The notes under the pieces were generated by a model. The model searched no databases. It had not been told where the DNA came from and worked only from the letters and a program-made list of their open reading frames with translations. Both the position numbers and the translations under genes were made by a program. A DNA stretch of 27,090 nucleotides, taken from the NCBI GenBank assembly GCA_027023165.1, contig JALVWX010000217.1:1-27090 (forward strand). The letters are read 5' to 3'. Position 1 is the stretch's first letter. Every line of letters begins with the position of its first letter. Shown here in pieces: positions 1 to 6,965 of the stretch. The stretch comes from Thermococcus sp. Its GTDB lineage: Archaea > Methanobacteriota_B > Thermococci > Thermococcales > Thermococcaceae.

Positions 1-876
1 ACACATGACAGACTCTATGCTCTCAAAGAAAGGCTTGGTGTTCCATTCTCCGAGCTTCTTACTTGGCTTGTGGACCTCGCGGAAGGAAAAATTGATGAAA
101 TGGAACTGAGGGCCAAGGTTAAACGCCTTAAGGAAGCCCTTGAGCGGGAGATAAAGGAGAAAGACCAGCTTCTAAGAGACTACGAGCGTTTGGTTAGAGA
201 TTACGAAAAACTCCAACTCAAGTATGAGGATTGCTGTCAGAAGCTTCAAGAATGCAAGAACAACAAGCCCAAGCTCGCCTCGAAGTGGTCTAAGATTCTC
301 CTCGCCATTCCCAAGGCCGTCGAAGAAGGCCTGACCTGGAACGACTTCATGCGGGACCTCGGAATCCTCGACCCGCAGGAGCAGGTAGCGGTAATGCAAC
401 GCTTCTTCATCACGATTGACGAGAACGGCAAGATTCCCGAAGTCATCAGGCCTTTGCAGGGCATCAAGGAGCTTGAGGGCATCGTCCTCTACCGGTCAAA
501 CGGTGAGAACGTCCGCTTCGCGAAGATTGTCAGGGAGGACACTCTCAAGGCCGCGAGGAGCATTGAGACCAAGAAGCCAAAGCCGGCCAAGGACGGCCAG
601 CCTGCCCTCGAGGTCCCGCGGGTGGAGGTGGAGAAGAGCCTCAAGGTCTGGCTGAAGCAGTACGAGGATTGGGCATCCGACTGGAGGACGAAGGAGAAGG
701 CTGAGCAGTTTATGAAGGGCGTGGGCAACAACGGCCTGCGCCGGCTGGTGAATGAGTACGGTTTCGATGTTGTGGCGGGAGTTATCGATTCTAACGCGGA
801 TTACAGGGCCTTGTTTGGCCCGTTTCTCGAGAAACTGAGGAAGAAACTGGAGGTGAAGGCCGATGTCAGGAGTTAG
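1..876 (+). CDS. Coiled-coil protein of the integrated element, 5' truncated by window
   Basis: The frame is open from base 1 to the TAG at 874-876, giving 291 visible residues. The true start is probably upstream of the window; a GTG at 70 is only the first internal candidate. Visible residues about 20-82 are charged and heptad-like, rich in K, E, R and L, and predict a coiled coil. A globular, helix-rich C-terminal part follows, with a proline/lysine-rich linker near visible residues 190-202. I do not recognise a family. It is the first visible gene of the operon and overlaps the next gene by 14 nt. A structural, DNA-binding or segregation role is possible, but nothing in the sequence decides it. 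Confidence 0.7.
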   Translation, partial: THDRLYALKERLGVPFSELLTWLVDLAEGKIDEMELRAKVKRLKEALEREIKEKDQLLRDYERLVRDYEKLQLKYEDCCQKLQECKNNKPKLASKWSKILLAIPKAVEEGLTWNDFMRDLGILDPQEQVAVMQRFFITIDENGKIPEVIRPLQGIKELEGIVLYRSNGENVRFAKIVREDTLKAARSIETKKPKPAKDGQPALEVPRVEVEKSLKVWLKQYEDWASDWRTKEKAEQFMKGVGNNGLRRLVNEYGFDVVAGVIDSNADYRALFGPFLEKLRKKLEVKADVRS

Positions 877-1342
877 GGTTCCGGTTAGAGTGCTGAAGCC
901 CCTCGCGAACTTCAAGGAGAGTGATATCATCCTCCTCCAGGAGAAGGACGTGAAGGCCCTCTGGAGCTACGGTCTCGTGGAAGTGGTTGATGAGACGAGC
1001 AGGATGGTGGGCGAAGTTGACAGGGTGTTAACTGAGGAGAAGGAGAACGAGCCGCTGTCAGAGCTTCCGGAGGGCCTCTATGAGAGGGCCGAGTTCTGGA
1101 TGTGGTACGCGGAGAACTACATCAGGCGGCATCCGGAAGACACCGATGCTATTGCCGTCAAGCTGGCGAAGCTCGCCACTTTGAGGAAGAAGGTTCAAGC
1201 GTTGAGGGCCATCAGGCTGAACAAGATTCTCAAGGCCGCCATGTTAAGGCCGCATTCTGAAACGATTCTTTCGCGTCTTTCGCCTGAGGAAGCTGAGGTT
1301 TACGAGTATCTCTCGGGCTTTGTTGAGAGGTGGTTGGAATGA
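863..1342 (+). CDS. Unrecognised helical protein, 159 aa
   Basis: The ATG at 863 follows GGAGGTGAA at suitable distance and lies inside the end of the upstream gene, so the two are probably translationally coupled. The N-terminal third (residues 1-50) has short beta-like stretches such as VRVPVRVLKP. The rest is predicted helical, including a tryptophan-rich segment (EFWMWYAENY) near residues 73-82 and a basic stretch (LRKKVQALRAIRLNK) near residues 109-123. No membrane segment or catalytic motif is visible and I recognise no family. The next gene starts within its stop codon (ATGA). It is probably an element-specific accessory or structural protein. Confidence 0.7.
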   Translation: MSGVRVPVRVLKPLANFKESDIILLQEKDVKALWSYGLVEVVDETSRMVGEVDRVLTEEKENEPLSELPEGLYERAEFWMWYAENYIRRHPEDTDAIAVKLAKLATLRKKVQALRAIRLNKILKAAMLRPHSETILSRLSPEEAEVYEYLSGFVERWLE

Positions 1343-1584
1343 CCGCGGAGGCGGATTTCTGGAGTTGGGTCGCCTCTGAGAAGGCGAAGCTGGATCGGAC
1401 CCTTGAGCAGGCGGAGGAAGTGCCGGACATCATCACGTGGCTGGAGCGGGAGATTCAGGTTGCTAGAGACACGGCGTTCTCGCTCTCGCTCAGGGGCGAG
1501 AACGGGGCCGAGTACTGGACGGGCTACGCGGACGCGCTGGAGGACCTGCTGAGGAAGATTCAGAGGCGGGAGGTGAGGGCATGA
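1339..1584 (+). CDS. Small helical acidic protein, 81 aa
   Basis: The ATG at 1339 overlaps the upstream TGA in ATGA and follows GAGGTGG. An in-frame upstream start at 1330 would lose this coupling. The 81-residue product is acidic and predicted almost fully helical, with aromatic residues in DFWSWV and EYWTGY. No domain is recognised. Its end overlaps the next start by 4 nt. It could be a small virion, partner or anti-host protein; the sequence gives no functional evidence beyond conserved operon-style packing. Confidence 0.6.
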   Translation: MTAEADFWSWVASEKAKLDRTLEQAEEVPDIITWLEREIQVARDTAFSLSLRGENGAEYWTGYADALEDLLRKIQRREVRA

Positions 1585-1814
1585 CTTGGGAGCCTAAAAA
1601 ATATACGCTCGTCCTCCAGGAGGACGGGAAGGAAATACTAAGGATGGAATTCGAGGGGAGAGTCATCAGCAATGGTTCAACATCTCTTGACGAGGAGAGT
1701 GTAAAAGCGAAGGTTTCTCACAAGCACCCTCTTGGCGTTATCTCCTTGGTCAGGTGGGCAGTTGAAGTCGTGGAGGACTACCCCGATGACGTGATTGAGG
1801 AGGCCTCGCCATGA
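1581..1814 (+). CDS. Small unrecognised protein, 77 aa
   Basis: The ATG at 1581 lies in an ATGA overlap and is preceded by GGAGGTGAGGGC, a strong ribosome site that recurs before several genes of this operon. The first half looks beta-rich, with alternating segments such as YTLVLQEDG and LRMEFEGRVI. The C-terminal half contains a hydrophobic helix-like stretch ending in acidic residues. No family is recognised and no catalytic or metal-binding motif is visible. It overlaps the next gene by 4 nt. It is most likely a small accessory protein of the element. Confidence 0.55.
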   Translation: MTWEPKKYTLVLQEDGKEILRMEFEGRVISNGSTSLDEESVKAKVSHKHPLGVISLVRWAVEVVEDYPDDVIEEASP

Positions 1815-1999
1815 TTCTCCGCACGCCTTCCTCAATGAAGGTGCTCGAGGTCCTCGAGCAGGGGCCGGCGACGTTCAGCGAGCTCGTCAGGAGGACTGGC
1901 CTGCCCGCCAAAGACGTGGCTGGAGCGCTTGACCAGCCCGGCAGGAAGGGACTCGTCGTCAAGGGGGAGTACTGGTTCGAGCTGGAGGTGAGGGCATGA
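1811..1999 (+). CDS. Minimal winged-helix DNA-binding protein, 62 aa
   Basis: The ATG at 1811 overlaps the previous stop by 4 nt. Residues 9-62 read like a compact winged helix: a helix with MKVLEVLEQGP, a turn, the probable recognition region FSELVRRTGLPAKDVAGAL, then a hydrophobic wing (GLVVKGEYWFELEV). This resembles the cores of MarR/ArsR-like regulators but is shorter than most. A second ATG at 1835 could give a 54-aa form, but the ATGA coupling favours 1811. It probably binds DNA as a small regulator of the element; its target is unknown. Confidence 0.6.
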   Translation: MILRTPSSMKVLEVLEQGPATFSELVRRTGLPAKDVAGALDQPGRKGLVVKGEYWFELEVRA

Positions 2000-2163
2000 G
2001 CGTGATGATTGTCAGGCTCTGGCACAAAGGACGGATGTACGAGCAGTATTCACTCATTGGCTCGAGGAGAGTGAGAAACGCGGAAGAATTGAGGAAGCTT
2101 GAGGAGCACTATGATGTCGAGTTTTGGGGCATGGTTCCAGATGAAGAGGAGGGTCGTTCATGA
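1996..2163 (+). CDS. Small unrecognised protein, 55 aa
   Basis: This short gene fills what would otherwise be a 160-nt hole in the operon. The ATG at 1996 overlaps the preceding TGA in ATGA and follows GGAGGTGAGGGC, the same ribosome site used at 1581. The frame is open to a TGA at 2161-2163, which again overlaps the next ATG at 2160. The product begins MSVMIVRLWHKGRMYEQYSL and ends in an acidic tail. It appears to have a beta-hairpin-like start followed by a charged helix. No family is recognised. Exact stop/start overlaps on both sides are the main evidence that it is real. Confidence 0.6.
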   Translation: MSVMIVRLWHKGRMYEQYSLIGSRRVRNAEELRKLEEHYDVEFWGMVPDEEEGRS

Positions 2164-2453
2164 GCTGGCTTCGTGTTCGCGCGCCTCACTTCTCGAGGGG
2201 CACTAGAATCGTGGACTTGAGCAAGGTGGCGGCGCTCAGCGTGATTGAAAATGACGAGAAGACGGTCATTGAATTAAGGAGCGCAAACGACTCCACGTTA
2301 GCGCAGGTAATAGCGAAAAAGGACGAGGCGGAGCGCGTGATTGACGCGCTAACCCTCCTCATCGAGCAGTCAAAGCAATTCAGCGACGCGAGGATATTCA
2401 CCCTCGAGGAGGTCCTCAATGACAGCACTCCCGAGCAGGGGGTGTGGGCATGA
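2160..2453 (+). CDS. Unrecognised protein, 97 aa
   Basis: The ATG at 2160 overlaps the stop of the 55-aa gene by 4 nt and follows GAGGAGGGTCGTTC. Residues 1-50 alternate in a beta-like way (RIVDLSKVAALSVIENDEKT, then VIELRSAN). They are followed by a helix (IAKKDEAERVIDALTLLIEQ) and an acidic tail. The first half resembles small PH-like or single-strand-binding-like folds in general character only, and I do not assign a family. The next gene begins at 2450, again in ATGA. Confidence 0.55.
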   Translation: MSWLRVRAPHFSRGTRIVDLSKVAALSVIENDEKTVIELRSANDSTLAQVIAKKDEAERVIDALTLLIEQSKQFSDARIFTLEEVLNDSTPEQGVWA

Positions 2454-2869
2454 CTTTCCGCCCTGCCGTGAAGCACCTCCGCCTTTCCGAGGAAGTCCAG
2501 GCCAAGTGGCAAGAGGCGGTTGAAGAGTTCAACGCTCTCAAGGTTCAAGTCCTTATCGATGACGACGAGCTGCCGGAAAATGCGGCCAATGTTGTCGAGC
2601 TGGAACGGCTCCAGGCTGTCCTGGAGGACGCGCCGGTCCCCTCGAGGGTGTACGTGGACGGGAAGGTGTACAAGGTCAAGCTGAGGAAGCGCGTCTCGAG
2701 GGAGGAGTACAAGGCCCTCATGGGCGAGTTAGAGAAGATTAGCAGGACCTGGTGGGACAGAAGTGAGCGCGTCATCAAGGTACTGAGGTACGAGGAGCAG
2801 CAGGTGAGTGAGGAAGAGCTCCTCGAGGTTGAAGAGATCGTCGTCGCGCCCAAGGAGGTGAGAGCTTGA
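2450..2869 (+). CDS. Unrecognised acidic helical protein, 139 aa
   Basis: The ATG at 2450 forms ATGA with the preceding stop, so I prefer it to the in-frame GTG at 2444. The product has a helical N-terminus (residues 8-34) and a short acidic segment with DDDELPE near residues 38-44. A beta-like patch, VYVDGKVYKVKLRKRV, lies near residues 67-82. The C-terminal half is long, helical and strongly acidic and ends VVAPKEVRA. No enzyme motif or membrane span is seen. Its last codons carry the ribosome site for the Cas4-like gene, with the TTG start overlapping its TGA. Confidence 0.6.
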   Translation: MTFRPAVKHLRLSEEVQAKWQEAVEEFNALKVQVLIDDDELPENAANVVELERLQAVLEDAPVPSRVYVDGKVYKVKLRKRVSREEYKALMGELEKISRTWWDRSERVIKVLRYEEQQVSEEELLEVEEIVVAPKEVRA

Positions 2870-3531
2870 ATATTGATTCCCTTATTATCTCGGTGTCAAA
2901 TGATGTGAACGAGCTTCCAGAACCCATTAAACGCCATATTGAGGAGATAACTTCAAGTGAGTACACTCATCGAGACGGCGAGGTTCACGTGACTGAACTC
3001 CTGTACTGCCTCCGCAAGGCCTATTACAGGCGCATGGCTGAGAAGAACGGGGAAAATGTCGAGAAAGAGCTTAAGAACAGGTGGTGGCTGTACCGGGGAG
3101 TGGTCTTTGACGAGCTGTGGACTGGATTATTCCCGAAAAACCAGGTCCGCATAACCCACCGTATTCCTGACGGGCCGGTAATAGCGGGCAAGATTGACTT
3201 CATTTACAATGACACGGTTTATGACCTGAAGACCATCAGCAATGAATACGCCGTCCGCGACGGCCCGAAGGAGGAGCACGTGAAGCAGGTCCTCTTCTAT
3301 GCTTGGGTGAACAACACTCCAAAGGCCGGTCTGATCTATGTCTGGCTTGGAGGTGTCAAGATTTTCCTCATCGACACTTCAAGGGCCTATGAGGTCGTCA
3401 AGGAGCTCGAGGAACGTGCCATGAAGCTTTGGACGGCACTCAGGAAGATGGAGCCGCCAGAGCGGGAGGAAAGCTGGCAGTGCAAATACTGCGAGTTCAA
3501 AGACATTTGCCTCAGGGGAGGGATTGAGTGA
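2866..3531 (+). CDS. Cas4/RecB-like PD-(D/E)XK nuclease with cysteine cluster
   Basis: The likely start is TTG at 2866, placed by GGAGGTGAGAGC and an overlap with the upstream TGA (TTGA). Residues 109-122 hold a RecB-type core: GKIDF with D111, then YDLKT with D120 and K122. Q141 and Y145 in QVLFYAW form the following helix motif. Four cysteines (C48 in LLYCLRKAYY; C206, C209 and C215 in CKYCEFKDIC) are arranged as in Cas4 and AddB-like iron-sulphur nucleases. These families degrade or trim DNA ends. No cas1 or cas2 is near, so a role in replication, recombination or anti-CRISPR-type interference is more likely than spacer acquisition. The assignment to the superfamily is solid; the biological role is inferred. 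Confidence 0.82.
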   Translation: MNIDSLIISVSNDVNELPEPIKRHIEEITSSEYTHRDGEVHVTELLYCLRKAYYRRMAEKNGENVEKELKNRWWLYRGVVFDELWTGLFPKNQVRITHRIPDGPVIAGKIDFIYNDTVYDLKTISNEYAVRDGPKEEHVKQVLFYAWVNNTPKAGLIYVWLGGVKIFLIDTSRAYEVVKELEERAMKLWTALRKMEPPEREESWQCKYCEFKDICLRGGIE

Positions 3532-4283
3532 TGGTCCAGAGGGTTTTCCTCGCTCTCGAAGGTTCGGGAACTGACAAGAAAGTTGACTGGCCGTATGTGC
3601 TCATCTCAGCCGCAACGCTGTGGACTGGCAAAAAATTCAAGCCGCTGCGCACTCACGAGAGTGTCAAAGAACTCTTCCTCGACAGTGGCGGCTTCTCATT
3701 CTTCTCCCGCTATGGCGAGTATCCGTACACTTGCCTGCAACTCTGGCGCCTCGCGAGGAAGTTGAACGCGAACTACGTCGCCATAATGGACTACCCTTGT
3801 GAGCCTGGCGTGAACCGCGAGCGCTACAAGACAAACATCGAGAGGATCGAGCGTACGATTGAGAACGGCATGAAGTGTCTGGACCTAGATGGTGTGAATT
3901 GGGTCATGGTGATTCAGGGCTACACGGTAGATGAATACCTCTATGCGATTGACAGGATCCGCGAGCAGGGCCTTCTCACTGATGTCATGGCAATTGGTAC
4001 TCTCTGCACGCGCAGGAGTATCTCGGCGGCCAGAGAGGCCATACTTGCTATCAGGAAAGCTGTTCCAGGGTGGGTCAAGCTCCATGGTTTTGGCGTCGAC
4101 CTTCGTTTCCTCCGGGATCCCGCGATTTTCCACGCGCTCTACTCTACTGATACGGGGGCCTGGAAGGGGTTCATGCCAATGAAGGAGATCGAGAAGCTCC
4201 AATACCTCGAGCAGTACAAGATGAAGTTGAGCGCGGTGATGGACTTCCACTCCCGCCAGAAGAGGCTTGTGGAGGTGGTCTGA
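3531..4283 (+). CDS. TGT-superfamily protein, DpdA-like DNA 7-deazaguanine transglycosylase candidate
   Basis: The 250-aa product carries the tRNA-guanine transglycosylase pattern in order: DSGGF at 51-55, an aspartate in MDYPC (D87), the glutamine of VIQG (Q129), MAIG at 153-156, and a late aspartate in STDTGAW (D207). D207 sits where the catalytic nucleophile is expected. TGT enzymes replace a guanine base with a 7-deazaguanine such as preQ0. The protein lacks the CxCxxC zinc motif of ordinary TGT and the RNA-binding PUA domain of archaeal TGT. It is short like the phage DpdA proteins that modify DNA. Its setting, between two nuclease-like genes in an integrated element, supports DNA as substrate. 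The start is ATG at 3531, overlapping the upstream TGA by 1 nt. Superfamily assignment is strong; the DNA substrate is inferred. Confidence 0.78.
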   Translation: MVQRVFLALEGSGTDKKVDWPYVLISAATLWTGKKFKPLRTHESVKELFLDSGGFSFFSRYGEYPYTCLQLWRLARKLNANYVAIMDYPCEPGVNRERYKTNIERIERTIENGMKCLDLDGVNWVMVIQGYTVDEYLYAIDRIREQGLLTDVMAIGTLCTRRSISAAREAILAIRKAVPGWVKLHGFGVDLRFLRDPAIFHALYSTDTGAWKGFMPMKEIEKLQYLEQYKMKLSAVMDFHSRQKRLVEVV

Positions 4284-4837
4284 TGGCCAGCCGGACGGCT
4301 TTCGTGTATGATTCCTCCTTCCCTCTTCACCAGCTTGAGACGTTCTTCATCAGGCACTCGAAGGATGTCTTCAACAGGCTGGAGTTCAGCAGGGCGCTTG
4401 AGGCGGCGAGGGCCCTCTCGGACAGGAGACACTTCGTGAAGGTTATGGACATTGACGCGCTAGTCGTCGTTGATAACGTCATTAGGGCTGGCTTTGAGAT
4501 CAAGACCCTCAGAGAGAGCGTAGTGAATTACCGCGACGCTACGGGTTCCTATGTGAAGGTGAATGGCAACCAGTACAAGACTTACATGGACTTCGTGAGG
4601 CGGACGGGGATTGACGTGTATTACCTCGTTCGCGTGCAGGGCCAGCGTGGAGTCTACTTCTACCTGTGGAGTGTTCTCCGGGCGCCGGTTCGGTTCGAGT
4701 GGCTCGGGAGCAGGGAGCACGGGACGTATGATTACTATGCTCTTGTTAGGCGGGAGAAGGTGGCGAGGCTCAGTGAGGGTGAGTTGGCTAAAACGCTCAG
4801 GGACATCCTGCTCGAAGGGGGCGCGGGTGATGGCTAA
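4283..4837 (+). CDS. PD-(D/E)XK nuclease-like protein, 184 aa
   Basis: The ATG at 4283 overlaps the DpdA-like stop in TGATG, so expression is coupled. A restriction-endonuclease-like core is visible: D58 in DIDALVVV, then E72 and K74 in FEIK. This D-x13-ExK spacing is flanked by hydrophobic strands. A following helix has Q97 and K99 in NQYKTYMDFVRRTG, and a strand YYLVRV comes next. The order resembles Hjc resolvases and NERD/Mrr-like nucleases. The N-terminal 50 residues and the C-terminal helix are not recognised. It could be a resolvase, a restriction-like enzyme or a modification-linked nuclease. No assigned family is evident, so the nuclease call rests on the motif pattern alone. Confidence 0.6.
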   Translation: MASRTAFVYDSSFPLHQLETFFIRHSKDVFNRLEFSRALEAARALSDRRHFVKVMDIDALVVVDNVIRAGFEIKTLRESVVNYRDATGSYVKVNGNQYKTYMDFVRRTGIDVYYLVRVQGQRGVYFYLWSVLRAPVRFEWLGSREHGTYDYYALVRREKVARLSEGELAKTLRDILLEGGAGDG

Positions 4838-4907
4838 GTGGATTCGCCGAGCTGTGTGGTTTGAGGAGAACATAAGAGAACAGTTCGGTATAGGCAGAAT
4901 TCCTTAG
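4830..4907 (+). CDS. Possible 25-aa peptide at operon end
   Basis: An ATG at 4830 overlaps the end of the nuclease-like gene by 8 nt and opens a 25-codon frame, MAKWIRRAVWFEENIREQFG and five more residues, ending at TAG 4905-4907. The peptide is amphipathic and could form one helix. Overlap in the same style as the rest of the operon supports it, but its short length gives little evidence. It may also be the fortuitous tail of the operon transcript. Confidence 0.3.
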   Translation: MAKWIRRAVWFEENIREQFGIGRIP

Positions 4908-4937
4908 GGAGGTGGAGATATGACCCACGTTAACTTT

Positions 4938-4947
4938 CATACGTATG
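4938..4947. promoter_or_regulatory. Palindrome CATACGTATG flanked by GTTAAC repeats
   Basis: A perfect 10-bp palindrome sits between two GTTAAC hexamers at 4929 and 4947. The AT-rich symmetry between the end of the long operon and the regulator gene makes it a plausible protein-binding site, for example for the winged-helix protein encoded at 5135. No functional evidence is available. Confidence 0.3.
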
Positions 4948-4979
4948 TTAACAGCGATAATAACGCCTCCTGTATAGTA

Positions 4980-4991
4980 TCATTCTTTTTC
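4980..4991 (+). terminator. Oligo-T tract, possible operon terminator
   Basis: ATTCTTTTTCC lies about 75 nt after the last operon gene. Archaeal RNA polymerase terminates mainly at oligo-T tracts, so this is the most likely end of the long operon. It is weaker than a run of six or more T. Confidence 0.3.
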
Positions 4992-5022
4992 CAGAACCTT
5001 TCCCGTGTGACCAACTCTAATC

Positions 5023-5037
5023 GCCGGAAAACCCGGC
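5023..5037. repeat. Small hairpin GCCGG-AAAAC-CCGGC
   Basis: A perfect 5-bp GC stem with a 5-nt loop lies about 55 nt before the winged-helix gene's TATA element. It could be an operator or an RNA hairpin. It is too short to exclude chance. Confidence 0.3.
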
Positions 5038-5090
5038 ATAATATACACCACCTGTACCTATTCCACCCAACTCCAGAAGAGTCCCGGCAC

Positions 5091-5104
5091 CTGAAAAATA
5101 TAAG
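5091..5104 (+). promoter_or_regulatory. Promoter of the winged-helix gene
   Basis: CTGAAAAATATAAG matches an archaeal BRE plus TATA element. Its centre near 5100 predicts a start about 5126, a short leader carrying GAGGTGG at 5128-5134, and the ATG at 5135. Confidence 0.6.
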
Positions 5105-5134
5105 TCCCGTAAACGAAGTAACAGAGGTGGTATA

Positions 5135-5488
5135 ATGCCCCGCAGGAGAAAGTTTCCAGACTATGTTGAGATAAGAGTTCCAGTCTATCAGCCACCCTCC
5201 AGCACCCTCGAACTCCTCTTCGAGGGCAAAACCCTCGAAATAGCCAAGAGGCTCGTCGAGTACTTGAAAAAGAACGGCGGCCTCTTCAAAGACGAGTACC
5301 AGGAAGCCCTCGGCATTGATGGTGCTGATAAGGTCCTCTACTTCAGGGTCTTGAAGAAGCTCCTGGCCCTCGGAATGGTTTACGAGGACCGCGGGATGTA
5401 CAAACTCTCAGACCGTTTCTCTGAGAGAATGGAGAACCTGGCCAAGATGTGGAAGTTTGAGATTGGCAAAGTCGCTGAGCTGTGGTGA
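5135..5488 (+). CDS. Winged-helix DNA-binding protein, 117 aa
   Basis: The ATG at 5135 follows GAGGTGG and its own promoter. The N-terminus is basic (MPRRRKF). Residues 25-105 read as a winged helix: LEIAKRLVEYLKKNGGLFKD, a second helix with YQEALGI, a probable recognition helix VLYFRVLKKLLALGM, and a wing with VYEDRGMYKLSD. A C-terminal helix follows. The family is not recognised. It stands apart from the long operon and just before int(N), where archaeal elements commonly place regulators or excision factors. Autoregulation through the nearby palindromes is possible but unproven. Confidence 0.7.
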   Translation: MPRRRKFPDYVEIRVPVYQPPSSTLELLFEGKTLEIAKRLVEYLKKNGGLFKDEYQEALGIDGADKVLYFRVLKKLLALGMVYEDRGMYKLSDRFSERMENLAKMWKFEIGKVAELW

Positions 5489-5546
5489 GCCTCATGACCG
5501 CAGTCCTAATAACCCGCGAAGTTGCACTCCGTAGCGGTGGGACAAC

Positions 5547-5915
5547 ATGCCCAAAAAGGCCCACAAAAATAGGGGCTTTCACACGGCCCAAAAAGCCCGA
5601 AAAAGCGAGAAGGTGCGTGTTCATCTGTACCTTGATAAGGAGGTTGTCGGAGGCTTACGCGAAGAGGGGTTCAACCTCTCCAGATTGTTTAACAAGCTCG
5701 GGAGGGAGCGCCTTATGATGATTCGCTCTCAGAGGGGTCTCTTTTTCACTTCAGAAAAGCTGGCGGGCCGGGCGGGATTTGAACCCGCGACCTTCGGCTC
5801 CGGAGGCCGACGCTCTGTCCAGGCTAAGCCACCGGCCCATCCCGATACCCATACACGAGAAGCCTTTAAAAATATAATTCTTCCCCCGTCCAAAGGTTTC
5901 AGCACAAACCTTTAG
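5547..5915 (+). CDS. SSV-type integrase N-terminal fragment, int(N), read-through into tRNA
   Basis: The ATG at 5547 follows GGTGGGA. Residues 21-57 look like a ribbon-helix-helix domain (VRVHLYLDKEVV, then NLSRLFNKLGRERL). From about residue 72 the frame is the antisense of tRNA-Arg, giving GRAGFEPATFGSGGRR. The SSV1 integrase contains an almost identical stretch (PGFEPGTSGSGG) because its attachment site is also tRNA-Arg(CCG). I therefore read this as the integrase N-terminus left beside the tRNA after integration. Codons beyond roughly position 5804 are host sequence and the remainder of the integrase should be at the left end of the element. An alternative is a simple ribbon-helix-helix protein whose stop was lost into the tRNA. 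Confidence 0.65.
   Translation: MPKKAHKNRGFHTAQKARKSEKVRVHLYLDKEVVGGLREEGFNLSRLFNKLGRERLMMIRSQRGLFFTSEKLAGRAGFEPATFGSGGRRSVQAKPPAHPDTHTREAFKNIILPPSKGFSTNL
5761..5804. other. Probable attachment site (3' half of tRNA-Arg)
   Basis: SSV-type integrases recombine within the segment from the anticodon loop to the tRNA 3' end. That interval here, including the encoded CCA, is shared between the tRNA and the int(N) frame. The exact core length is inferred from the SSV1 arrangement; the partner copy lies outside the window. Confidence 0.5.
5761..5838 (-). tRNA. tRNA-Arg (anticodon CCG)
   Basis: On the minus strand the sequence folds as a cloverleaf. The acceptor stem pairs GGGCCGG with CCGGCCC and the discriminator is G, with CCA encoded. 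The anticodon stem TCGGC/GCCGA carries loop CTCCGGA, and the T-arm is GCGGG-TTCAAAT-CCCGC. The anticodon CCG (5801-5803) reads arginine codon CGG. No intron is present. The gene remains intact although an element is integrated at its 3' end. Confidence 0.96.
5863..5880 (-). promoter_or_regulatory. Promoter of tRNA-Arg
   Basis: Read on the minus strand, GAATTATATTTTTAAAGG is a strong AT-rich TATA region centred about 30 nt upstream of the mature tRNA 5' end. That is the usual archaeal spacing. Confidence 0.6.
5892..5913. repeat. Inverted repeat AAAGGTTT-(6)-AAACCTTT
   Basis: Two perfect 8-bp arms are separated by CAGCAC, lying just upstream of the tRNA-Arg promoter. It could be a regulatory site or an RNA hairpin; its role is unknown. 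Confidence 0.45.
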
Positions 5916-6092
5916 CACGCGAGCGAAACGGCCAGTTGTCGTCGGACCGTCTCTGTTATTCCATCGGGGCCAGCACAGCAACACTTCTACTTTCCGGGAT
6001 AATCATATCGAGCAGCAGAAATAGTGTAATCAGGACTCCACTCAAGCATCGATTTCACCAAAAATGAAAGAGGGGTTGGGGTTAATATACCT

Positions 6093-6965
6093 TCACCCGA
6101 AAGCCGTCATGACCCTGTGAAGCGCGTTTGCGAAGTCCTCCGCGTGGACTACAATATACCAGTCGTCGGTTCTCGTAAGCTCTCCCCTCGATTTGCCCAT
6201 CAACTCCCCGTAGAGGCCCTGAATCTTCACCCTCGGCTCCGTGGTTGAGAGCTTCAGCGTTATCTCGCTCGACCTCCCTTCCTCCCAAACGACGCCAACC
6301 TTCAGGCCCGCTTTGGTCTCCTTCTTCTTTCTGAGGCCGAGCTTGAGGTAGCGGAGTCTCTCCTCCGGAACGCCGTTCTCCTCTCCCTTCTCGCGGAGGT
6401 ACTCATCCGCCAGGGTCAGCCCGTGAAGGCCGAGGGCGTAGCCGAAGACTGGAATTCCAAGGTCTTTTCTGGTTCTCCCCTTGTATGCGTAGACCTCTAT
6501 CCTCCTCCCAGAGCCCCTCGAGGCGAGGTAGAGGCCGTTCGTCTCCTCCCGCATGAACTCGCTCAAAAAGTCTGCCAGCGTTTCGTAGAAAGAGAACGGT
6601 ATCGAGAAGCTCGCCCACGTTCCCCATATCCTCGGCGGAACCGAGACGAAGCCCATCTCCTCAAGGTGGTATTCGAGGGGCTTCGGCCTCAGTATCAGGA
6701 AGCCCTTCTCCGTGAGCTCCATCTCCATGACTGCCTTCTCTCCCGGCACCAAAGTGAACTTCCCGTCGCTCTCAAAGTCCTTCGCCTTTAGGAGTCTATC
6801 CCTTCTCAGCCGTCTCTCTTCCCTCGAGCTTACCACTACCGGAACCGGCGTTTTCCTTCCGCGTTCCTTGTCATAGGGCACCTTAAAGCCCGCCTTCAAA
6901 AGCTCCTCCTGGATCTCGAGCGAGGCTGGAAAGAAGACCTGCATCCTCTTCATTTCAACCTCCAT
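6093..6965 (-). CDS. Uncharacterised protein, 290 aa
   Basis: The minus-strand ATG at 6965 follows AAGGAGG at 7 nt. A second ATG twelve bases on is also preceded by GGAGGTTG, so either could be used. The protein is soluble and basic. A mixed N-terminal region ([20 protein letters not shown]) is followed by an arginine/lysine-rich segment near residues 48-62. Two alpha/beta-like halves come next, and the C-terminus is [20 protein letters not shown]. No catalytic motif, membrane span or known domain is recognised. It is divergent from lysS, with separate promoters in the shared gap. It is probably a Thermococcales-specific protein. Confidence 0.75.

Follow-up and report, generated by a model that had tools for sequence, protein, structure and literature searches.

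Does a mobile element integrated in a Thermococcus genome mark its own DNA with a base precursor drawn from host tRNA modification, and are the nuclease-like genes on either side of the putative marking enzyme its partners? The question arises from three consecutive genes on the forward strand of a 27,090-nucleotide stretch of Thermococcus sp. DNA (contig JALVWX010000217.1, assembly GCA_027023165.1; this whole stretch is referred to as the window). Gene 1 (2866..3531, 221 amino acids, TTG start) encodes a Cas4/RecB-like PD-(D/E)XK nuclease, gene 2 (3528..4283, 251 amino acids from GTG or 250 from the ATG at 3531) a DpdA-family protein of the tRNA-guanine transglycosylase (TGT) superfamily, and gene 3 (4283..4837, ATG start) a homologue of t26-28p, a pT26-2-type backbone gene, with a PD-(D/E)XK motif and weak likeness to Hjc. 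The overlaps amount to 4 bases between genes 1 and 2 and 1 base between genes 2 and 3, no frame contains an internal stop, and a GGAGG- or GGGAGG-like (Shine-Dalgarno-like) stretch lies 5′ of each start; the three consecutive overlapping genes are thus real. A first-pass annotation of the window had read them as a candidate 7-deazaguanine modification system, in which the element modifies its DNA with host preQ0 and a neighboring nuclease processes element DNA or attacks unmodified DNA. What it observed was confirmed in the present analysis, and its interpretation was supported in part.

The product of gene 2 matched the Pfam family DpdA (PF23859) with E = 8.3e-11 and 41.8 bits (cut-off 27) and phrog_1279 with E = 1.1e-15, and all 72 homologues retrieved at E ≤ 1e-3 carried the PF23859 tag. 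The Pfam TGT profile gave 18.6 bits, below its cut-off of 26.3, and detected the control proteins ArcTGT and TGT with 287 and 405 bits, respectively. Counted from the GTG codon, the motif positions are D52 in DSGGF, D88, Q130, A155-I156-G157, and D208 in STDTGAW; they had been recorded as DSGGF, D87, Q129, MAIG, and D207, each one residue lower. In an alignment of 48 rows, D52, D88, Q130, G157, and H186 were invariant, and D208 was kept in at least 90% of the rows. From TGT enzymology we take D208 to be the nucleophile and D52 the acid/base residue, with D88, Q130, and G157 presumably holding the base. The earlier statement that a zinc CxCxxC motif and a PUA domain are lacking also holds, as the protein contains no CxxC anywhere and Pfam detected neither a PUA nor a TGT_C2 domain in it, both of which were found in the ArcTGT control.

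The AlphaFold2 model of gene 2 showed an intact TGT barrel with a mean predicted local distance difference test (pLDDT) score of 94.7. The first Foldseek match was the DNA preQ0 insertase 7ui4 (E = 3.3e-7), with the Pyrococcus horikoshii ArcTGT 1iq8 at E = 3.5e-7. No convincing relative was found in the PDB by sequence, whether a single sequence or a profile was used. Profile search and structure prediction thus bear out the call of a TGT-superfamily protein with DpdA-like features and kept catalytic positions, and the PF23859 match, the 72 homologues, and the confident model are far beyond chance.

Relatives of gene 2 were present in 91 of 50,697 phage records and 67 of 72,556 plasmid records. 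In viral contigs, gene 2 alone gave no match, and 17 closer sequences retrieved one locus (L005). A scan of genome contigs with the gene 2 family returned a single contig from Thermoplasmatota (L001, genome G001), a phylum with a match in 2 of 389 genomes and none in 387, which carries no information on Thermococcales. Besides its PF23859 gene, this archaeal genome contains a frame for a TGT of bacterial type, an ArcTGT, and, as a third, a partial TGT match (L012, L013, and L014).

We consider it probable that gene 2 inserts host preQ0 into the DNA of the element and so blunts restriction, and that the two nucleases are not restriction partners. Upon excision and replication of the element, the operon would be read, and gene 2 would become active and exchange guanine in element DNA for preQ0 from the host archaeosine pathway by the TGT mechanism. 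The modified DNA would resist host restriction enzymes, this protection being the benefit to the element; the Cas4-like nuclease would, like gene 3 with its Hjc resemblance, serve element replication and recombination, not restriction. According to a study on Thermococcus kodakarensis, preQ0 is handled in tRNA for archaeosine (PMC11298593), and use of host preQ0 by the element is a reasonable proposal.

This reading is based on the PF23859 score above and the TGT score below cut-off, the kept catalytic positions, the first rank of 7ui4, and the missing PUA and TGT_C2 domains. It is further based on a signature around the nucleophile, S-x-D-[ST]-x-[AS]-W, that was found in 63 of 72 gene 2 relatives and also in the DpdAs of phages CAjan and 9g; in the two TGT controls, the corresponding regions are LFDSAS and IFDSAF. 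Both phage enzymes are tied to DNA in PMC6884629, which describes the CAjan DpdA as required for the dPreQ0 of that phage and 9g dpdA, expressed alone, as yielding dPreQ0 in plasmid DNA of a preQ0-making host. Finally, gene 2 lies in a mobile-element operon with a GINS-like gene, its relatives reside on phage and plasmid records, and the neighbors of one relative on a Salinibaculum plasmid fit a role in DNA modification. On that plasmid (NZ_CP129994, L020:4034-8729), a Vut_1 queuosine-precursor transporter gene lies at 2.2 kb and an AccI-type restriction gene at 3.0 kb from the PF23859 gene, and three proteins encoded in between have no Pfam match; the locus is a candidate haloarchaeal deazaguanine modification/restriction island.

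Several observations weigh against a DNA substrate. The DpdAs of CAjan (L015:28848-29768), 9g (L016:3007-3960), and phage 7-11 (L024:30787-31491) gave no PF23859 match and all belong to PHROG 887, so that by sequence the name DpdA spans two lineages. With the profile of the gene 2 family, nine phage and plasmid relatives scored 167 to 222 bits, versus 32 bits for ArcTGT, 27 for CAjan, 25 for 9g, 21 for bacterial TGT, and 8 for 7-11. VIA-align placed ArcTGT 1iq8 first, and 7ui4 was not among its best 50 rows, an absence that excludes nothing. According to PMC6884629, the DpdA-only phage Orion has no modification, though its host makes no preQ0, and the modification of phage 7-11 reaches only 0.02% of G. 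A preQ0-synthesis gene was not found by Pfam among the scanned ORFs (open reading frames) of the element. In a tree of 53 proteins (gene 2 with 44 of its 72 homologues and eight further proteins, two TGTs being in the sample), gene 2 was placed firmly within PF23859 proteins of metagenomic origin, and the two TGTs stood apart; with its long branches and no outgroup, this tree cannot show whether PF23859 has a common origin with the proven DpdAs. The check proposed in the first-pass annotation, whether gene 2 groups with tRNA TGTs, neither refuted nor proved its reading: Pfam assigns gene 2 to DpdA and not to TGT, but the proven CAjan and 9g enzymes lie outside PF23859 and in another PHROG. Since the proven phage DpdAs examined form another family and resemble gene 2 no more closely than tRNA TGTs do, a DNA substrate is something we infer.

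The same data give some room to a different target, namely host tRNA, another RNA, or a protein, which we judge unlikely. The fold of gene 2 is as near to the P. horikoshii ArcTGT as to DpdA, its profile is no nearer to the proven DpdAs than to TGTs, and Cap10 ranked 17th among the Foldseek matches. PMC11996544 presents Cap10, from type IV CBASS (cyclic oligonucleotide-based antiphage signaling system), as a TGT-family enzyme remodeled to bind a protein N-terminus bearing a deazaguanine. Against such a target stand the missing PUA and TGT_C2 domains, the TGT score below cut-off, and the nucleophile signature common to gene 2 and the CAjan and 9g DpdAs. Moreover, gene 2 matched no PADLOC model, and the scanned element ORFs showed neither a QueC-like nor a nucleotidyltransferase domain. 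Assignment of gene 2 as a tRNA TGT was rejected on the absent sequence domains; the fold alone cannot reject it.

The element itself was delimited at its right end. The ORF at 5547..5915 (+) is probably the Int(N) fragment of a type I integrase, as it shares 64% identity over 50 residues with the N-terminus of pT26-2 t26-1p, an archaeal integrase (PF16795). It continues through the complement of a tRNA-Arg(CCG) gene (5761..5838, −), as expected for an integrated type I (suicide) integrase. This tRNA gene is the integration target, and 39 bases of its 3′ part match within the pT26-2 integrase gene at 92%. Badel et al. 2019 (PMC6972569) describe for the pT26-2 family a type I integrase, an attachment site (att) within the integrase gene, and integration at a tRNA 3′ end, which is that of tRNA-Arg for pT26-2. 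From the Int(N) match, the att match at tRNA-Arg, and this described arrangement, positions 1 to about 5760 belong to an integrated element and make up its right end, in agreement with the earlier placement of the trio in an integrated archaeal element. Most likely the element belongs to the pT26-2 family, with which it shares the type I integrase carrying att in its gene, the tRNA-Arg 3′ end as target, and a t26-28p homologue; judged from the right end, the seven core genes would lie to the left of the window. Unlike the element, pT26-2 possesses neither dpdA nor the Cas4-like family of gene 1.

Integration bears on whether gene 2 is at present inactive, a dispensable cargo gene of the integrated copy, a view to which we give little credence. 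The split integrase is consistent with it, as is the unmodified DNA of dpdA-carrying Orion described in PMC6884629. The loop after the nucleophile points the same way, being the shortest in gene 2 and common to 4 of 72 homologues (P0001-P0003 and P0005), but relatives with 97, 90, and 88% identity to gene 2 have the same short loop. In addition, the frame is open with a Shine-Dalgarno-like start, the catalytic positions are kept, and the GC content at third codon positions (0.71) falls inside the range of the other element genes (0.60-0.83) and at the low edge of that of 12 chromosome genes (0.71-0.79).

The two flanking genes were analyzed for a link to gene 2. Gene 1 scored above the cut-offs of PF12705 (PDDEXK_1; 36.6 bits, cut-off 22) and PF01930 (Cas_Cas4; 29.4 bits, cut-off 22.7), which sustains the Cas4/RecB-like call, and reached 49 bits with the Cas4 equivalog TIGR00372, under the cut-off of 65. 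The protein keeps D111, D120, K122, Q141, and Y145 together with the cysteines C48, C206, C209, and C215. A protein search returned 25 entries, one of them that of the window itself, and no known modification partner was seen among them. The family occurred at two loci in viral contigs (L010 and L011), and gene 1 gave no tblastn match to phages.

Gene 3 is 48.9% identical to a pGE2 protein and 29.7% identical to t26-28p of pT26-2. It matched PHROG 27407 ('Holliday junction resolvase') with E = 1.2e-26 and no Pfam family up to E = 1. Its D58...E72-x-K74 was invariant in 17 rows, in line with the earlier description as a second PD-(D/E)XK-type protein. The model was of moderate quality (pLDDT 76.3), and its best Foldseek match, to Hjc ST1444, was weak (E = 0.012), with none at E ≤ 0.001; likeness to Hjc is thus weakly indicated. 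The 16 relatives include five with an organism name, from Palaeococcus ferrophilus, Thermococcus barophilus, Pyrococcus horikoshii, Pyrococcus abyssi, and a Thermococcus metagenome-assembled genome; none was found in viral contigs.

To judge co-occurrence, all loci were searched with profiles of the three families in flanks of about 1.5 to 8 kb, in places ended by the contig or record end. There were 12 distinct other dpdA loci, all strong relatives by the gene 2 profile (L001, which coincides with L002 and L008; L003, L004, L005, L009, and L017-L023); nine of them were also run through Pfam and all scored above the PF23859 cut-off, and L009, L021, and L023 were recognized by the gene 2 profile alone. 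A Cas4-like gene of the gene 1 family or a gene 3 homologue was found in the flanks of none of the 12. The Cas4 profile is narrow: in CAjan and 9g it also missed the annotated Cas4-domain exonucleases, and the count is therefore valid for the subfamily of gene 1. Conversely, neither Cas4-like viral locus contained dpdA, and gene 3 was present without genes 1 and 2 in pT26-2 (whole) and in pGE2 (14.5 of 24.0 kb examined).

The two functions do meet at larger distances. In the CAjan and 9g records, about 8 kb lie between dpdA and the annotated Cas4-domain exonuclease, phage MiCath encodes both a Cas4-type exonuclease and a DpdA according to PMC10710427, and in the Thermococcus nautili plasmid NZ_OX281346 a PF23859 gene (L003:7878-8684) is separated by about 19 kb from a Cas4-like gene. 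PF23859 is thereby present in a second Thermococcales element. A recombination-type exonuclease and a DpdA are thus repeatedly found within one mobile genome, but in the loci examined they were not linked as a pair. The trio as a conserved module is not supported, and a restriction unit was rejected on the same co-occurrence data, since gene 3 and the Cas4-like family were found without dpdA and 0 of 12 dpdA loci had either family. In the simplest reading, dpdA and the Cas4-like gene are cargo between the element genes at 2444-2869 and 4283-4837, both of which have PHROG relatives. That gene 2 marks element DNA for gene 1 (or gene 3) to destroy what is unmarked, the minimal modification/restriction-like unit of the first-pass annotation, is hardly credible: adjacency and overlap, PD-(D/E)XK residues in both flanking proteins, and the joint presence in CAjan, 9g, and MiCath favor it, but the unlinked dpdA loci, the Cas4-like viral loci, pT26-2 and pGE2, and the 25 Cas4-like proteins all speak against it.

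The trio is part of a probable single operon of 12 ORFs (1..4907, +), in which neighbors overlap at 11 of 11 junctions. The operon includes the GINS/Sld5-like gene (863..1342, +; PF05916, 28.2 bits, cut-off 22.3, E = 2.4e-6), whose product resembles a helical bundle and is a possible replication factor of the element. A winged-helix-like gene (1811-1999; DprA_WH, barely above cut-off) and a 55-amino-acid ORF (1996-2163) that overlaps both adjacent ORFs and is shorter than the limit of the ORF list also belong to it. The element gene adjoining gene 1 (2444..2869, +; phrog_28411, E = 8.3e-32) has no assigned function. After a gap of 227 bases the operon is followed by a regulator-like element gene (5135..5488, +; phrog_32591 'transcriptional regulator', E = 7.8e-73). 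Scans of viral contigs gave no match for the ORFs at 5135, 2444, and 863, tblastn against phages none for gene 3 or the ORF at 5135, and megablast of positions 1-6100 against phages and plasmids none.

Gene 2 was compared with described systems. The DpdAs of PF23859/phrog_1279 (DpdA-only mycobacteriophages, for example MarkPhew, phiLM21, and Gilgamesh; T. nautili plasmid NZ_OX281346; Methanofastidiosa virus vir519) share its Pfam family, scoring above the cut-off, its catalytic motifs, and location on mobile elements, and as in its own element no preQ0 genes are named in the annotated stretches examined. Most are 28-37% identical to gene 2, and many have a zinc-like CxxC after the nucleophile, which gene 2 lacks. 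The CAjan and 9g DpdAs resemble it in superfamily and in the motifs DSG[GA]F, H[AG]FG, and S-x-D-[ST]-x-[AS]-W, but belong to phrog_887 and not PF23859, have about 310 residues, and are accompanied by preQ0-synthesis genes. ArcTGT 1iq8 is 12% identical and comprises 577 residues, with C-terminal domains that gene 2 does not have. Closest in arrangement is HRTV-29, which PMC8651126 describes as archaeal, with a DpdA homologue, no preQ0 genes, and a proposed use of host preQ0; unlike the element it is a tailed halovirus, and the likeness is one of description, not of DpdA sequence. In PMC6884629, DpdA or pathway genes are assigned to 16 archaeal viruses. Among the open-licence papers listed in the literature searches, none reports a DpdA in a Thermococcales element in its title or at the start of its abstract. 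As DpdA-only archaeal elements are already in print with the same host-preQ0 proposal (HRTV-29, PMC8651126), the element is not a new kind of system.

Our wider proposal is tentative and may well prove wrong: a DpdA of some 250 residues that lacks zinc would hide the DNA of a hyperthermophile plasmid with a precursor of host tRNA modification, and PF23859, a lineage distributed across mobile elements of archaea and bacteria, would represent, next to the proven phage lineage, another kind of DNA 7-deazaguanine insertase, one that depends on the host. Thermococcales are culturable, and some are genetically tractable. If gene 2 does act on element DNA, 7-deazaguanine DNA modification would extend to plasmids of hyperthermophilic archaea, where one gene could suffice because the hosts make preQ0 for archaeosine, and the question whether PF23859 proteins, already called DpdA by Pfam although the proven phage DpdAs examined fail to match its model, really act on DNA would be settled.

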